Positions 8,546 through 13,069 of a stretch of DNA of 64,000 nt are shown here, piece after piece. Position 1 is the stretch's first letter; the number at the start of each line of letters is the position of its first letter. The DNA lies in the NCBI RefSeq assembly GCF_035594035.1, contig NZ_CP141588.1, forward strand, positions 1,695,501-1,759,500, written 5' to 3'. The notes under the pieces were generated by a model, which was not told the origin of the DNA, searched no databases, and saw nothing but the letters and a program-made list of their open reading frames with translations. This stretch comes from Sphingomonas sp. LY54 (GTDB lineage: Bacteria > Pseudomonadota > Alphaproteobacteria > Sphingomonadales > Sphingomonadaceae). A program made the translations under genes and the position numbers.

Positions 8546-9217
8546 TCACTTGAGATCGTATTCCGGCCTCAACTCCTCCCAAAGTGCGAGAATGCGCTCG
8601 TAACGGGCTGCAAATAGCGCCTCCTCGTCACCTCTCAGGAACGTCGACGCGCCAGAGAACGAACGCCCACGGAGGACGTCTAGGATTTCCATACCCGACA
8701 GCTCGAACTCCGATAGCGCATCGCCCATCAACCAAAGCCCTACGCGCGCCCATTTTTCCTCCAGAGCAGGTTCCTCCGAGAAGTACGGGTAAACGAGTCG
8801 ATGTTGGTCTTCGCCCAGCTTGAGGGCCAAGATGTTATCTACCTTTACTGTAAGCTCCATGCCGGGCACGACATAATGGGTGTGCACCTGCTCTTCGCTC
8901 CAACCTATTGTCAGGTTCGTGTTACGGCGAAACAGCTCGAACCAGCGAAGGAAACCTTGGGTTAGGAGTGGATAGAGACGCTTTCGCCCCGAAACTTCGC
9001 TCAAACGATCAGTGGCCTCGCGAAGATCTTCGAGACCGACCGCGTGATCCTTGGCTGCGTCCCACCAGGGATAATGAAAATGACCACCGCCGACCTTACG
9101 GCCGATCATCTTGTTCCGCTCTGTTCGGAGGTCATTCCTCAGTGCTGAGATCAGTTTATTTTCTGACAGTTCGCAGAGACATAGGAGTTTGTTGAGGTTG
9201 ATGACCTTAATCGACAT
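8546..9217 (-). CDS. Conserved hypothetical protein convergent to the kinase operon
   Basis: 223 aa, soluble, no signal peptide. The N-terminal half is helical with GGGHFHYPWWDAAKDHA. The C-terminal half holds VDNILALKLGEDQHRLVYPYFSEEPAL, followed by an amphipathic segment WARVGLWLMGDALSEF and ARYERILALWEELRP at the end. The arrangement 'D-I-L-x-L-K ... V-Y-P-Y-F' recurs, from memory, in hypothetical proteins of accessory regions, but no catalytic motif is certain. It shares the lower GC of the kinase operon and lies 83 bp from it tail to tail, so it probably arrived with it. Function is not known. Confidence 0.65.
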   Translation of the reverse strand: MSIKVINLNKLLCLCELSENKLISALRNDLRTERNKMIGRKVGGGHFHYPWWDAAKDHAVGLEDLREATDRLSEVSGRKRLYPLLTQGFLRWFELFRRNTNLTIGWSEEQVHTHYVVPGMELTVKVDNILALKLGEDQHRLVYPYFSEEPALEEKWARVGLWLMGDALSEFELSGMEILDVLRGRSFSGASTFLRGDEEALFAARYERILALWEELRPEYDLK

Positions 9218-9404
9218 CAGACAACACCTTTCGTAGCTCGACCCACTATCTGGGCGACACCTGCTCCCCTTCCCCGTTAATTATGTTGTGTTATGAATGA
9301 TCTTTAGCACTCGCCGCCGTTGACTGCCATACGTTTCTGATGCGTTCCGATTAAGAAGAGCTCGTTTTTTTGGGCTCGCCTCTAACGCTCGCCCCCTCGT
9401 TCCA

Positions 9405-9707
9405 CTACCGCTGGCTCGGCAGCGGCAGCGCCTCTCCGTCGGGCGGGTCGCGGGTGAGGTCGAGCCTGGGGCCGCCGATCTTCATGTTGCGCTCGGCGAG
9501 GCACGGCATGCAGCGGGCGTAGCGCTTTACCTCGATCAGATGGTCCGGCTTGCCGCGCAGCGACAGGCGTAGCCACAGCGCCGCCGCGTGCAGCACGCGG
9601 GCGTGGCCGCACTTCCAGCAGGTGAGCCGCACGTTCCAGCCAAGACGCGCCGCCTCGAAGATGCTCTCGATCTGGGGCGGCCTCTCCGGCCCGGGCGACT
9701 CGCTCAT
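9405..9707 (-). CDS. Small zinc-ribbon protein, probably SOS-controlled
   Basis: 100 aa with two CxxC pairs (LTCWKCGHARVL and RYARCMPCLAER) expected to bind one zinc ion, and a basic body (LWLRLSLRGKPDHLIEVKRYA). The start is taken at 9707 (MSESPGPERP) because a GAAC-N7-GAAC SOS box lies immediately upstream; the next upstream Met would fall inside that box. It is divergent from the SRAP gene and would share LexA control with it. The zinc-ribbon plus SOS context suggests a DNA-damage role, which is inference only. Confidence 0.7.
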   Translation of the reverse strand: MSESPGPERPPQIESIFEAARLGWNVRLTCWKCGHARVLHAAALWLRLSLRGKPDHLIEVKRYARCMPCLAERNMKIGGPRLDLTRDPPDGEALPLPSQR

Positions 9708-9710
9708 CGC

Positions 9711-9725
9711 GAACATATAGCGAAC
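9711..9725. promoter_or_regulatory. Bidirectional SOS box
   Basis: GAAC 9711-9714, seven bases, GAAC 9722-9725: a perfect alphaproteobacterial LexA operator. It is 3 bp from the zinc-ribbon start on the minus strand and about 65 bp upstream of the SRAP start on the plus strand, so one LexA site can control both divergent genes. Confidence 0.75.
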
Positions 9726-9790
9726 GCGGATCGTCCCGGCACCCGCTTGCGCCTCTTCATTCGCGCCGCCGCAGCCGCTACACCGCATGC

Positions 9791-10573
9791 ATGTGCAACG
9801 AACAGCGCCGCCGCATCGCGCTCGACCAGATCCGCAACGACTGGAGCCAGACGCGCATCCCGCTGCGCTTCCCCGAAGGCCTCCCCAACCTCGCCCCGCT
9901 CGACTCGATCCGCATCACGGACCCCAATGCGATCATCCGCGCAGCAGCGCCCGCGAGCAGCGAGGCCGGCGCCGATGCGCCGCCCGAGCAGCAACCGGAG
10001 TCGCTGCAAGCCGGCCGACCGGCAGCGGAGCTGACCGAATCGACGGGGTCAGGCCGCCCTGACCCCGCAGCAGCGCCCCCCGCAGCAGGCAGCAAAGAGG
10101 GTCCCCATGAAAGTACCACTTTCATGGGAGAAGCCGAACTGATCATCCGCCGCTGGTCCTGGCCCGGCCCGGGCGGCAAGCCGGTCTACAATTTCCGCTC
10201 GGACGGGCGCGAGTTCGGCAACAGCGCGCGCGGCGGCCGCTGCCTGATCGTCGCCGACGGCTTCTACGAATTCACCACGCCCGAGGTCGCGCCCGGCCAG
10301 CCGAAGCCGAAGCGCAAGCACAAATGGCTGTTCACCAAGCCCGGCGAGGAGTGGTTCTGCATCGCCGGCCTGTGGCGCGCCACAGCCGAGGTCGGCGAGG
10401 CCTATACGATGCTGACCTGCCCGCCCGGCCCGGACGTCGCCCCCTATCACGGCCGCCAGGTGGTGGTGCTCGACCGCGCCGACTGGGCCGCCTGGCTCGA
10501 CGATTCCAACCCCGCCGCCCGCTTCTGCCGCCCCCTCCCCGCCGGCACCCTGGCCGTCGAGCAAGTCCAGTAA
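9791..10573 (+). CDS. SRAP (YedK/HMCES-type) DNA-protein crosslink protein with repeat-derived insertion
   Basis: 260 aa. SRAP proteins covalently trap abasic sites in single-stranded DNA through Cys2. Here the N-terminus is MCNEQ, with Asn in NFRSDGREF, Glu in RCLIVADGFYEF and His in PYHGRQVVVLD, the expected active-site set. Typical members are about 200-220 aa. The excess is a low-complexity segment at residues about 51-113 (Pro/Ala/Glu rich) that corresponds exactly to a copy of the 130-bp intergenic repeat plus a 10-bp-stem hairpin. The core sequence resumes at EAELIIRRWSWPG. An SOS box sits upstream. The inserted region lies before the NFRSDGREF strand, probably as a surface loop, so activity may survive. 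Confidence 0.92.
   Translation: MCNEQRRRIALDQIRNDWSQTRIPLRFPEGLPNLAPLDSIRITDPNAIIRAAAPASSEAGADAPPEQQPESLQAGRPAAELTESTGSGRPDPAAAPPAAGSKEGPHESTTFMGEAELIIRRWSWPGPGGKPVYNFRSDGREFGNSARGGRCLIVADGFYEFTTPEVAPGQPKPKRKHKWLFTKPGEEWFCIAGLWRATAEVGEAYTMLTCPPGPDVAPYHGRQVVVLDRADWAAWLDDSNPAARFCRPLPAGTLAVEQVQ
9941..10068 (+). repeat. Copy 1 of ~130-bp repeat, in frame inside the SRAP gene
   Basis: It matches the order of blocks in the intergenic copies (agcagcg, gaggccggcgc, gcgccgcccgagcag, cggagtcg, gcaagccggccg, ggtcaggccgccctgacc). The terminal hairpin has 9 pairs and tetraloop ccgc. Its second base pair is G-C where copies 2 and 3 have C-G, a compensatory change. It is more diverged than copies 2-4. Confidence 0.75.
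10104..10128. repeat. 10-bp-stem hairpin (TACCA loop) within the SRAP gene
   Basis: cccatgaaag (10104-10113) pairs perfectly with ctttcatggg (10119-10128) around a five-base loop tacca, preceded by GGTC. A second hairpin of the same design lies at 11040-11064 with loop tacta. The two share the AAAG-TACYA-CTTT core but differ in the outer stem, again with compensation. Confidence 0.75.
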
Positions 10574-11205
10574 AGGGCCGCTTCCTTTGCGCCTTGGCGC
10601 CTTCGCGTGAACCCTTACCTTCTCCTCAGAACAAACAAAGAACTTGCAAAATAGGATTTCGTCTGTTGGGATGGAACCGCCTCGGTTTTTCCGGTTGCCG
10701 TCGGCGGCAGTCGGGGCCCGTCGCCGCTTGCTCTTTCTCAGCCCGCAACCCGCATTCAGCCCGCCTGGAAGGACGGCCTGCCCGATCAAGCGTTTTGGTG
10801 TGACCCAAGTGTGACCTTCCGCGCCAAGCCGCCCGGCCGCAGCGAAGCCGGCGCACGCGCCGCCTGAGCAGCGCGCGGAGTCGGCGCAGGCCGGCCGGCG
10901 GGGCGCTCGGCTCACCCGAGCGAACCCGTCCGACGCGGTCAGGCCGCCCTGACCGCGAGCCGCCCGCAACGACCCACCCGCGTTCCCCGGCGAAAGCCGG
11001 GGCCCAGACTCCACCGCACTGGACCCCGGCTTCCGCGGTCCCCGCAAAGTACTACTTTGCGGGGTGCCCTTCCGCCGGGGAGCAGCTCTCCGTCCACGCC
11101 ACCACCCCGTCATTGCGAGCGCAGCGAAGCAATCCAGCCCCTCGGGCCAAGCCGCCGCCCCCCGAAAAATGCTATGACCCTCCCGCCCCCACGGAAGGAA
11201 AACCC
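10574..11205. repeat. Repeat-dense intergenic region including copy 2 of the ~130-bp repeat
   Basis: No gene is supported here. In order it holds: a gcgccttggcgccttcgcgtga sequence resembling a common dispersed repeat (about 10590); copy 2 of the 130-bp repeat at 10823-10957 with terminal hairpin gcggtcagg-ccgc-cctgaccgc; a palindrome of the ttccccggcgaaagccgg type at 10982-11036; the hairpin ccccgcaaag-tacta-ctttgcgggg at 11040-11064; and a cattgcgagcgcagcgaagc element at 11111-11137. Several independent palindromic families have accumulated next to each other. Confidence 0.75.
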
Positions 11206-11583
11206 ATGCTGAAGGACCATGACAGCTCCGCCATCCTCGCCGTCGCCGATCTCGCCCGCGCCCGCGCCTTCTACGGCGAGACCTTGGGCCTCGAACTCGA
11301 CGAGGAGGGGACGGAGGAAGGCGTGCTCGTCTACCGCACCGGCGCCACCCGGCTCGTCGTCTACCGTTCGGACCATGCCGGCACCAACCGCGCCAACGCG
11401 GTCGTCTGGGGCGTCGGCGAAGAGCTCGACGAGATCGTCGCCGCGCTCGAGGCCAAAGGCGTGACGTTCGAGCACTATCCCGACATCGGCCGCCTCGAAG
11501 GCAATATCCACGCCGCCGGCGACGCCAGGCTCGCCTGGCTCAAGGACCCCGACGGCAACATCCTGCATCTCAATAGCTTGTAG
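11206..11583 (+). CDS. VOC-family (glyoxalase-like) protein
   Basis: 125 aa from ATG 11206, with GGAAGGA seven bases upstream; the longer upstream frame is repeat sequence. A single vicinal-oxygen-chelate module is seen: AILAVADLARARAFYGETLGLEL at the start, then VLVYRTGATRLVVYRS and LAWLKDPDGNILHLNSL at the end, where the terminal Asp-Pro-Asp-Gly-Asn is typical. Such proteins bind metal as dimers and act as lyases, dioxygenases or resistance proteins; the substrate cannot be told. It lies between repeat clusters and is probably monocistronic. Confidence 0.9.
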   Translation: MLKDHDSSAILAVADLARARAFYGETLGLELDEEGTEEGVLVYRTGATRLVVYRSDHAGTNRANAVVWGVGEELDEIVAALEAKGVTFEHYPDIGRLEGNIHAAGDARLAWLKDPDGNILHLNSL

Positions 11584-11849
11584 CCAAGCCGCCCGGCCGC
11601 AACGAAGCCGGCGCGCACGCCGCCTGAGCAGCGTCCGGAGCCGGCACAGGCCGGCCGGCGGGGCGCTCGGCGACCCCGAGCGAGCCCGTCCGACGCGGTC
11701 AGGCCGCCCTGACCGCCTAGCCGCCCGGACGCAGCGAAGCCGGACCACGGCCGCGCGAGCAGCGCCCGGAGTCGGCGCAGGCCCGGCCGGCGGGGCGCTC
11801 GGCCCGTCCGAGCGAACCCGTCCGACGCGGTCAGGCCGCCCTGACCGCC
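11583..11849 (+). repeat. Copies 3 and 4 of the ~130-bp repeat in tandem
   Basis: Copy 3 is 11583-11717 and copy 4 about 11718-11849. Both run from gcccgg.cgca.cgaagccgg through ggccggcggggcgctcgg and cgtccgacgcggtc to the hairpin gcggtcagg-ccgc-cctgaccgc. They fill the gap between the VOC gene and the next gene and end 2-3 bp before its stop codon. Confidence 0.85.
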
Positions 11850-11851
11850 AC

Positions 11852-12436
11852 TCACCCCTCCCGCCAGCGCCGCATCGCCTCCCGATAGGCCGCCTCTTCC
11901 GTCTCCCGGAGCGCTGCGAGCCGGGCGCGCTCCTTGTCCTGGCGCGCCTCGAGCGCCTTGCGCTCCCGCGCCAGCGCCGCCTCGCGCTCGCCCAGGCCCT
12001 TCAGCTCCGCCGCATACCGGCCTTCCGCCGCGGCCAGCGCGGCGTCGGCATCGTCCAGCTTCGCCCGGGAAGGGCGCGGTTTCGGCTTGGGAGGCGGCTT
12101 CGGCTTCTCCTTGCTCCCCGGCGAAAGCCGGGGCCCAGACCTGGCGCCCGAACTGGACCCCGGCTTTCGTCGGGGAACATCCGCAGGCTCCCCCTCTCCC
12201 AGCGCCGCAATCTGCTCCGCCGCCGTGCCGCGCAGCCGCTTGATGACCTGGCCGGGGCTGGCGAGCGGCGCCTCCGTCAGCGCGGGATCGGTGACCAGCT
12301 CGGCCTCCTTGCGGGCGAACACGCCGCTGTCCGTCCCCCACGCCTCCGCCGCCGCCTTCTGGCTCGGCGCCGCGACATAGGCGTCGTGGAAACCGATCGG
12401 CAGCCGGAACACCTTGAGCTTGGCGGCCCGCGCCAT
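11852..12436 (-). CDS. Coiled-coil hypothetical protein with in-frame palindromic repeat
   Basis: 194 aa. The N-terminal part (KLKVFRLPIGFHDAYVAAPSQKAA; FARKEAELVTDPALTEAPLASPG) is compact and conserved-looking. The C-terminal third is a charged coiled coil (LAAAEGRYAAELKGLGER, ARERKALEARQDKERARL). Between them residues about 86-108 are encoded by a palindromic repeat (12113-12178), followed by a Pro/Lys linker. It starts 4 bp after the stop of the NAD(P)H oxidoreductase-like gene and is probably co-transcribed with it. Function is unknown. Confidence 0.7.
   Translation of the reverse strand: MARAAKLKVFRLPIGFHDAYVAAPSQKAAAEAWGTDSGVFARKEAELVTDPALTEAPLASPGQVIKRLRGTAAEQIAALGEGEPADVPRRKPGSSSGARSGPRLSPGSKEKPKPPPKPKPRPSRAKLDDADAALAAAEGRYAAELKGLGEREAALARERKALEARQDKERARLAALRETEEAAYREAMRRWREG
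12113..12178. repeat. Palindromic repeat (ttccccggcgaaagccgg type) inside a CDS
   Basis: The left half ctccccggcgaaagccgggg and the right half ccccggctttcgtcggggaa are inverted copies around cccagacctggcgcccgaactgga. The same element is intergenic at 10982-11036. Here it is read in frame on the minus strand and adds about 22 residues without breaking the gene. Confidence 0.8.
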
Positions 12437-12439
12437 CGC

Positions 12440-13069
12440 TCAGCCGCCCGCCATCTCGATCCCGGCATAAGGCCGCGCCTGCAGCAGGCCGGCGAGGTGG
12501 GCGGCATTGGCCGCGGCCATCGCCGCCGATTCCCGCACCTTGTCGGGGATCGCGTCCAGGTCGCGGAAGTCGATCTTGCCCATCGCCTCGCCGACCCAAT
12601 AGGCCACGGCCGAGGCCGGGATCGTCCAGCCGGTGTCGGCCAGCGCCTGGTAGAGATGGGCGCTGACGCCGTGGGCGCCGTCCTCGTTGCCGACCACCGC
12701 CACCAGCGCGACCTTGCCGAAGCTTGGCATCCGCCCCCGATCGTCGGTCTCGCCGAGGAAGGCGTCCATCCGCTCGGTGACGCGCTTGGCGATGCTCGAC
12801 ATCTGGCCCATCCAGATCGGCGTGCCGAAGATCAGGATGTCGGCGGCAAGGATCTTGGCGCGGATCTCCGGCCATGCGTCGCCTTCGCCCTCGTCGGAGG
12901 TGACCCCGGGCTTCACGTCATGGTCGGCGATGCGGATCGTCTCGGCGAAGGCGACGCCCTGCTTCATCAGTTCGGAGACGACGAGCCCGATCATCTTGTC
13001 GGTCGACGAGACCTCGTCGCCGGCGCTCCCCTTCAGGGTGCAATTGATCGCGATCGCGGTGAGCGCCAT
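12440..13069 (-). CDS. Flavodoxin-fold NAD(P)H-dependent oxidoreductase
   Basis: 209 aa from ATG 13069 (MALTAIAINCTLKGS). It has the FMN-reductase-like layout: an early beta strand with a phosphate-binding loop (INCTLKGSAGDEVSSTD), then ADILIFGTPIWMGQMSS, the hallmark flavin-binding segment, and VALVAVVGNEDGAHG. It probably transfers electrons from NAD(P)H to a quinone, nitro compound or protein partner. The flavin phosphate loop is longer than in classical WrbA. It lies upstream of the coiled-coil gene and about 70 bp downstream of ygfZ's stop on the same strand. Confidence 0.88.
   Translation of the reverse strand: MALTAIAINCTLKGSAGDEVSSTDKMIGLVVSELMKQGVAFAETIRIADHDVKPGVTSDEGEGDAWPEIRAKILAADILIFGTPIWMGQMSSIAKRVTERMDAFLGETDDRGRMPSFGKVALVAVVGNEDGAHGVSAHLYQALADTGWTIPASAVAYWVGEAMGKIDFRDLDAIPDKVRESAAMAAANAAHLAGLLQARPYAGIEMAGG

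Follow-up and report, generated by a model that had tools for sequence, protein, structure and literature searches.

An SRAP (YedK/HMCES-type) gene in the window, by which we mean the whole 64,000-nucleotide stretch of Sphingomonas DNA analyzed here, carries in its reading frame two unrelated palindromic repeats, which we call A and B. In the reading that we prefer, to which we assign a probability of about 0.8, both occupy a turn of the protein that tolerates them, A was captured rarely, and loops bearing A or B were exchanged between SRAP lineages.

The SRAP gene and its in-frame insert

The gene (9791-10573, + strand) encodes 260 amino acids from a start fixed by the catalytic Cys2, and is free of stop codons across both repeats. 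The Pfam SRAP profile scored 68 bits against a curated cut-off of 27.1, with a match covering residues 140-259 only. According to PMC9436759, the catalytic positions of YedK are Cys2, residue 75, Glu105, and His160. The corresponding set in the window protein is C2, N134, E160, and H220, of which E160 and H220 were matched to YedK through alignments and N134 by its motif and by eye. In an alignment of 101 sequences (A4), consisting of 79 of the 120 best homologues (the window's own included) and 22 of 80 named loci, N134, E160, and H220 were invariant and C2 nearly so, in agreement with an earlier note on this DNA, which had claimed that the active-site residues are kept. Further SRAP matches (three rows) were present in the window's genome at G000:C1:108969-119798, indicating that the window gene is one of several paralogues.

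A complete SRAP fold was predicted by an AlphaFold model built from the 101 sequences (pLDDT 87.1), which superseded a poor model from 21 sequences (A1; pLDDT 57.7). Residues 1-50 belong to the modelled fold, and the insert forms the turn of a β-hairpin, between strands 45-51 and 115-122. Confidence was high in the flanking strands and low in the residue blocks 61-110 of the insert (pLDDT 53-63); these approximately 60 low-confidence residues bear out the description of the insert as a disordered segment of that length. The window protein has its fold and catalytic positions in common with the YedK/HMCES structures 6NUA, 6KCQ, 5KO9, and 6OEB, to which it is 14-19% identical in structural alignment, but adds about 60 residues in one β-hairpin turn.

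The first part of the insert is a copy of repeat A (9941-10066, + strand; residues 51-92). The covariance model of A, CM R1, had been built without this copy, yet recovered it with 69 bits (E 1.8e-8). In a DNA-level search of the whole 3.28-Mb genome, 9948-10067 was 73% identical to the intergenic repeat that starts at 10823 (E 1.5e-14), and the reciprocal search gave E 1.9e-14. Only one forward frame is open in the SRAP copy. The second part is hairpin B (10104-10128, + strand), a 25-bp sequence, CCCATGAAAG-TACCA-CTTTCATGGG, with a perfect 10-bp stem and an outer GGG from 10099; it encodes PHESTTFMG (residues 105-113). These matches fit the coordinates proposed before for the insert, 9941-10128, and its derivation, for residues of about 51-113, from a copy of A followed by a perfect 10-bp-stem hairpin. 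The B core pattern of the window, AAAGTRSYACTTT, occurs in two places in the 3.28-Mb genome, the SRAP gene and the intergenic site at 11046, and its reversed control had no match in that genome.

A 12-bp direct repeat, GCAGCAGCGCCC, lies at the boundary of A. On the + strand of the window it is found only at 9941-9952 (left copy) and 10067-10078 (right copy), 126 bp apart. This distance equals the 42-residue spacing of tandem A units in the homologue P0004, for which reason we read the repeat as what is left of a tandem unit that has been lost, and not as a target duplication; the right copy would thus be the start of a lost second A unit.

Both repeat types also stand in the neighboring intergenic DNA, as had been noticed for 10823-11064. 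Repeat A is present at 10823-10956 (+ strand; 111.3 bits; a copy that was part of the model) and at 11583-11716 (+ strand; 104 bits, also in the model), where its first base is the last stop-codon base of the gene 11206-11583 (distance 0). A second, tandem copy follows at 11715-11848 (+ strand; G000:C1:1707215-1707348; 95.7 bits), with 91% identity to the 10823 copy. The intergenic hairpin B (11040-11064, + strand) lies within the loop of a larger palindrome (11024-11080, unstranded), whose arms are CCCCGGC (11024-11030) and GCCGGGG (11074-11080), and is flanked by 7-bp direct repeats, CTTCCGC (11030-11036 and 11069-11075). The repeat patch at 10823-11136 comprises A, a palindrome TTCCCCGGCGAAAGCCGGGGCCCAG, a second such palindrome enclosing B, and a hairpin (11108-11136) that has CGTC at its start and CCA at its end.

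Two dispersed repeat families

Repeat A is about 130 nt long and has three stems with 48 pairs, as derived from 16 copies of eight genomes with the SRAP copy left out. Changes on both sides were found in 30 of the 48 pairs, and the covariation score was 0.326, as compared with a shuffled mean of 0.128. Pairing was observed in 89.8% of cells, versus 76.1% in shuffles and 29-41% with the partners slid, the last comparison being favored by the fact that the structure was derived from the same 16 sequences as were scored. The non-coding copies differ in length, and many copies of A have ACGTCACGG at the last stem. Across 26 genomes of the genus, CM R1 matched 120 times, in 19 of them; the window's genome contributes 13 of these matches, the SRAP copy included. 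In the family, scanned at E ≤ 1e-4 with stricter filters, matches were obtained in 13 of 119 sampled genomes and 10 of 96 genera, with up to 24 per genome. Copies can be clustered: one 5.4-kb locus of the window's genome (L229, G000:C1:1474331-1479712) has four on both strands, and similar clusters occur in G002, G010, G011, and G013.

We analyzed the placement of 79 copies out of the 120 genus matches (89 model matches, from which 7 duplicates caused by overlap of loci and 4 weak matches of 40.5-50.1 bits were removed and to which the tandem copy at 11715-11848 was added). Of these, 45 start between -9 and +5 bases from a stop codon on the same strand, as against 3 of 79 in a mirror control that counted opposite-strand stops at the 3' end of A. 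The genes upstream of the 45 copies show 35 different C-terminal strings, so some orthologues are counted more than once; judging by the C-terminal ends, we take some of these genes to be those for NusG, TypA, RpoD, GroEL, and SSB. A single copy of the 79, that in SRAP, lies inside a gene as predicted by a codon-bias script trained on the window. In locus L199, A (1501-1622, - strand) overlaps the 3' end of a 4.5S SRP RNA gene (1620-1717) by three bases, indicating that the placement is not limited to stop codons. From its positions at the ends of genes and of this SRP RNA, A seems to belong to the 3' ends of transcripts, and is a candidate for an undescribed 3'-end RNA or terminator-like family. 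In Rfam scans of window positions 9000-12500 and nine other loci, the A copies had no covariance-model match at E up to 1; sub-threshold miRNA and sRNA matches lay away from A, and the SRP RNA adjacent to one of the A copies exceeded its cut-off.

The core of hairpin B, AAAGTACYACTTT, gave 112 matches in 18 of 26 genomes and 1 for the reversed control, which rules out a chance palindrome. The consensus is GGGnnCCCnnnAAAGTACYACTTTnnnGGGnnCCC, in which the core and the outer GGG/CCC with its 2-nt internal loop are constant and the stem letters between them vary in pairs. The 112 matches were reduced to 98 distinct contexts for examination, and the 72 with a CCC stem start were used for tests of arms and direct repeats. 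B lies between complementary arms of at least 7 nt in 30 of the 72 copies (shuffled mean 8.2, maximum 16; 300 shuffles), and is often nested in the loops of other palindromes, of several types. Direct repeats of at least 6 stand beside 16 of the 72 (shuffled mean 5.4, maximum 12; 200 shuffles), half of the 16 being one palindrome type in genome G011. This excess across the 72 copies is weak, making a clean transposon with target duplication suggestive at most. A Y1 transposase (PF01797), which was found in 11 of the 26 genus genomes and had no match in the window's genome, fits poorly as the mobiliser, because G010 has 15 B matches but no PF01797 match.

Inside predicted genes, we found 6 of the 98 B copies: one in SRAP, one each in the genes for an M56 peptidase (L171) and a Prim-Pol protein (L252), and those in the terminase genes of three genomes. 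In L171 and L252, B is in frame a few residues past the M56 peptidase domain and the Prim-Pol domain, respectively. In L144, L257, and L296, a B copy with paired stem changes lies in the linker joining both domains of the terminase large subunit. A clean insertion is not supported for the terminase copies, the single hairpin-free segment compared being only 1-3 residues shorter.

The loop in relatives and the origin of its inserts

To describe the loop in relatives, we took the best 120 of 5083 SRAP matches, among which carriers are over-represented because the ranking query itself carries the insert. There is no long insert in the loop of 95 of them. A is present in nine (P0001-P0009), B or a B-like peptide in seven (P0001, P0010, P0011, P0029, P0033, P0037, and P0023, the last doubtful), another repeat-like insert in three (P0043, P0070, and P0120), and another long insert in seven; in metagenomic homologues, A and B inserts were recognized from their peptides. 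P0003 and P0004 have two tandem A units and P0002 has three, at a spacing of 42 or 47 residues, and the 33-aa A unit begins at residue 57 in all nine carriers. The GSK ahead of GPHESTTFMG is common to the window, P0029, and P0033 and lies outside the conserved part of B; at three residues, it is weak support. Since A alone, B alone, A in tandem, or a different insert is found at this place in homologues, the proposal that the window's gene alone had absorbed both repeats is not supported, and descent with loop recombination fits the window better than two fresh insertions. The claimed source in non-coding DNA agrees with the mostly intergenic position of A and B elsewhere.

Repeat-free orthologues, with which the earlier note had proposed a comparison, are common. 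This SRAP is present in 16 of 26 genus genomes at E ≤ 1e-30, the window's included; in the other 15, the loop is short in 14 and longer but unrelated in one (G009). Of 80 named SRAP loci, 75 were parsed, and inspection by eye showed A or B in none of them. The finding that the note had named as a refutation, distant orthologues with the same insert, was thus not made in these two sets. Identity to the window in P0002-P0007 is 91-98% in the core and 67-88% in the first A unit, P0002-P0006 having 97-98% core identity with intact inserts. The corresponding values are 74% (core) and 79% (A unit) in P0008, and 80% and 67% in P0009.

In a tree built from the 120 SRAP cores after excision of the loop, A required three changes with the window as an A carrier and B five with the window as a B carrier; when the window was set apart, four were required for each, three of each forced by starred branches. 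A single clade of the nine A carriers was rejected (log-likelihood 104.8 lower, p-AU 0.002). For B, a single clade was rejected with six rows including P0023 (p 0.0003) and not rejected with five rows without P0023 (p-AU 0.318), and an old single gain of B with later losses is possible. The constant residue 57, together with P0008, in which the unit is more similar than the core, makes it more likely that A inserts spread through the exchange of loop segments than that they were inserted afresh again and again, as judged from these sequences. P0009, in which the unit is less similar than the core, is neutral to contrary, as this is expected without exchange, and a site-specific inserter could likewise account for the identical residue 57.

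A peptide like that of A is also found, in the same frame as in SRAP, near the N-terminus of three hypothetical proteins of another family, P0121-P0123 (E 9.8e-5, 3.6e-4, and 6.1; seen by eye in the sequences). Among the homologues of P0121 in the genus, L302 is without the A-like peptide and L301 (G022) has a different repeat-like stretch in frame, presumably a known palindrome type.

According to our preferred reading, two unrelated dispersed palindromic repeats would have entered the β-hairpin turn of the SRAP protein in the single open forward frame of the SRAP copy, and would have been retained because a surface turn tolerates extra residues. A may have been captured in coding frame rarely, perhaps once, and then have grown and shrunk in steps of 42 or 47 residues through recombination between tandem units, and recombination or horizontal transfer may have carried loops bearing A or B from one SRAP lineage to another. 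In the window, the loop would be of the A type, with its second unit replaced by a B-type tail. The gene product should still crosslink abasic DNA, with a flexible loop that is rich in Ala, Pro, Gly, and Glu and has no known function, and the insert is probably tolerated by the protein.

Instead of exchange, the machinery that moves A and B might have targeted the same short stretch of SRAP repeatedly, in independent site-directed insertions. The core tree does place the A carriers in three separate positions, with P0008 and P0009 next to rows that bear B or a B-like insert, and the nesting of B between complementary arms in 30 of 72 copies suggests a taste for certain sites. We nevertheless consider such targeting unlikely, given that all nine carriers have the same start residue and 33-aa unit although non-coding A copies vary in length, and that the window's genome has no Y1 transposase match. 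Selection is slightly harder still to credit as the reason for the insert, with the A-derived peptide kept and multiplied as a useful module such as a tether or binding segment. That nine SRAPs and P0121-P0123 have such a peptide in one frame, and that P0002-P0004 have tandem units, would agree with a module, but in P0002-P0007 the A unit diverges more than the core, the predicted order of the insert is low, and homologues of P0121 lack the peptide or have another repeat-like stretch.

That the repeats are untranslated, the true start lying downstream or the gene being dead, is very improbable. By eye, no evident Shine-Dalgarno motif precedes 9791, as such a reading would have it, but a start beyond the insert, which the earlier note had named as a point against its own proposal, would lose the nearly invariant Cys2 and residues 1-50 of the modelled fold, and the inserts of P0002-P0006 are intact at 97-98% core identity. 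A bolder proposal, which we regard as unlikely, is that A is an undescribed functional 3'-end RNA element that was made into a coding module of SRAP in one frame, and was multiplied and exchanged because its peptide or its mRNA hairpins are useful. Rare capture in a tolerant turn, with exchange of loops between lineages, is the reading that we retain.

Relation to known intragenic repeats

Intragenic palindromic repeats (RPE, REP, and RU) are a known phenomenon, of which the SRAP insert is a case: A and B are also dispersed in non-coding DNA of the same genome, and the in-frame copy is missing from orthologues. In Rickettsia, RPE-1 is a longer palindromic element that lies in frame within protein genes. 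Likened to it by description, A is similarly in frame but differs in that 1 of 79 examined copies is intragenic. According to Di Nocera et al. 2013 (PMC3733652), REPs occur close to the 3' ends of genes and also within genes, of which many serve repair; different REPs occupy about the same recB site in X. campestris and X. oryzae, and in-frame clusters of GTAG/CGTC REPs encode 43 to 82 residues. Like the GTAG/CGTC REPs described there, A and B are palindromic and in some cases in frame within genes, including a repair gene, and A often stands beside gene 3' ends. Unlike them, A is about 130 nt long with three stems, and B has an outer GGG/CCC and neither tag; the unit of 20-40 bp with GTAG or CGTC at one end was found in neither A nor B, and the Y1 transposase of RAYT-mobilised REPs was not found in the window's genome. 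SRAP does not appear among the genes that section 15 of that paper names. The enterobacterial RU-1, RU-2, and RU-3 are intergenic repeats of 103-168 bp with open reading frames that also occur in genes (Delihas 2007, PMC2759123). By description, these are likewise repeats with reading frames in both intergenic and intragenic positions, in other hosts.

A literature search with four B core strings found nothing related, and one for SRAP with palindromic insertion found no title joining both. As far as the searches show, A and B are new element families within the literature covered; also new is the variety of repeats that a single SRAP loop holds among relatives.

Taken together, two repeat families have been defined, one of which covaries, lies at gene 3' ends, and had no Rfam match in the scanned stretches. 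In the SRAP family, structured non-coding repeats are seen to give rise to long disordered protein segments. The loops of relatives variously lack an insert, contain a single unit, contain two units or three, hold a different repeat, or combine repeats, and all of these states belong to one loop of one enzyme with an assayable activity.
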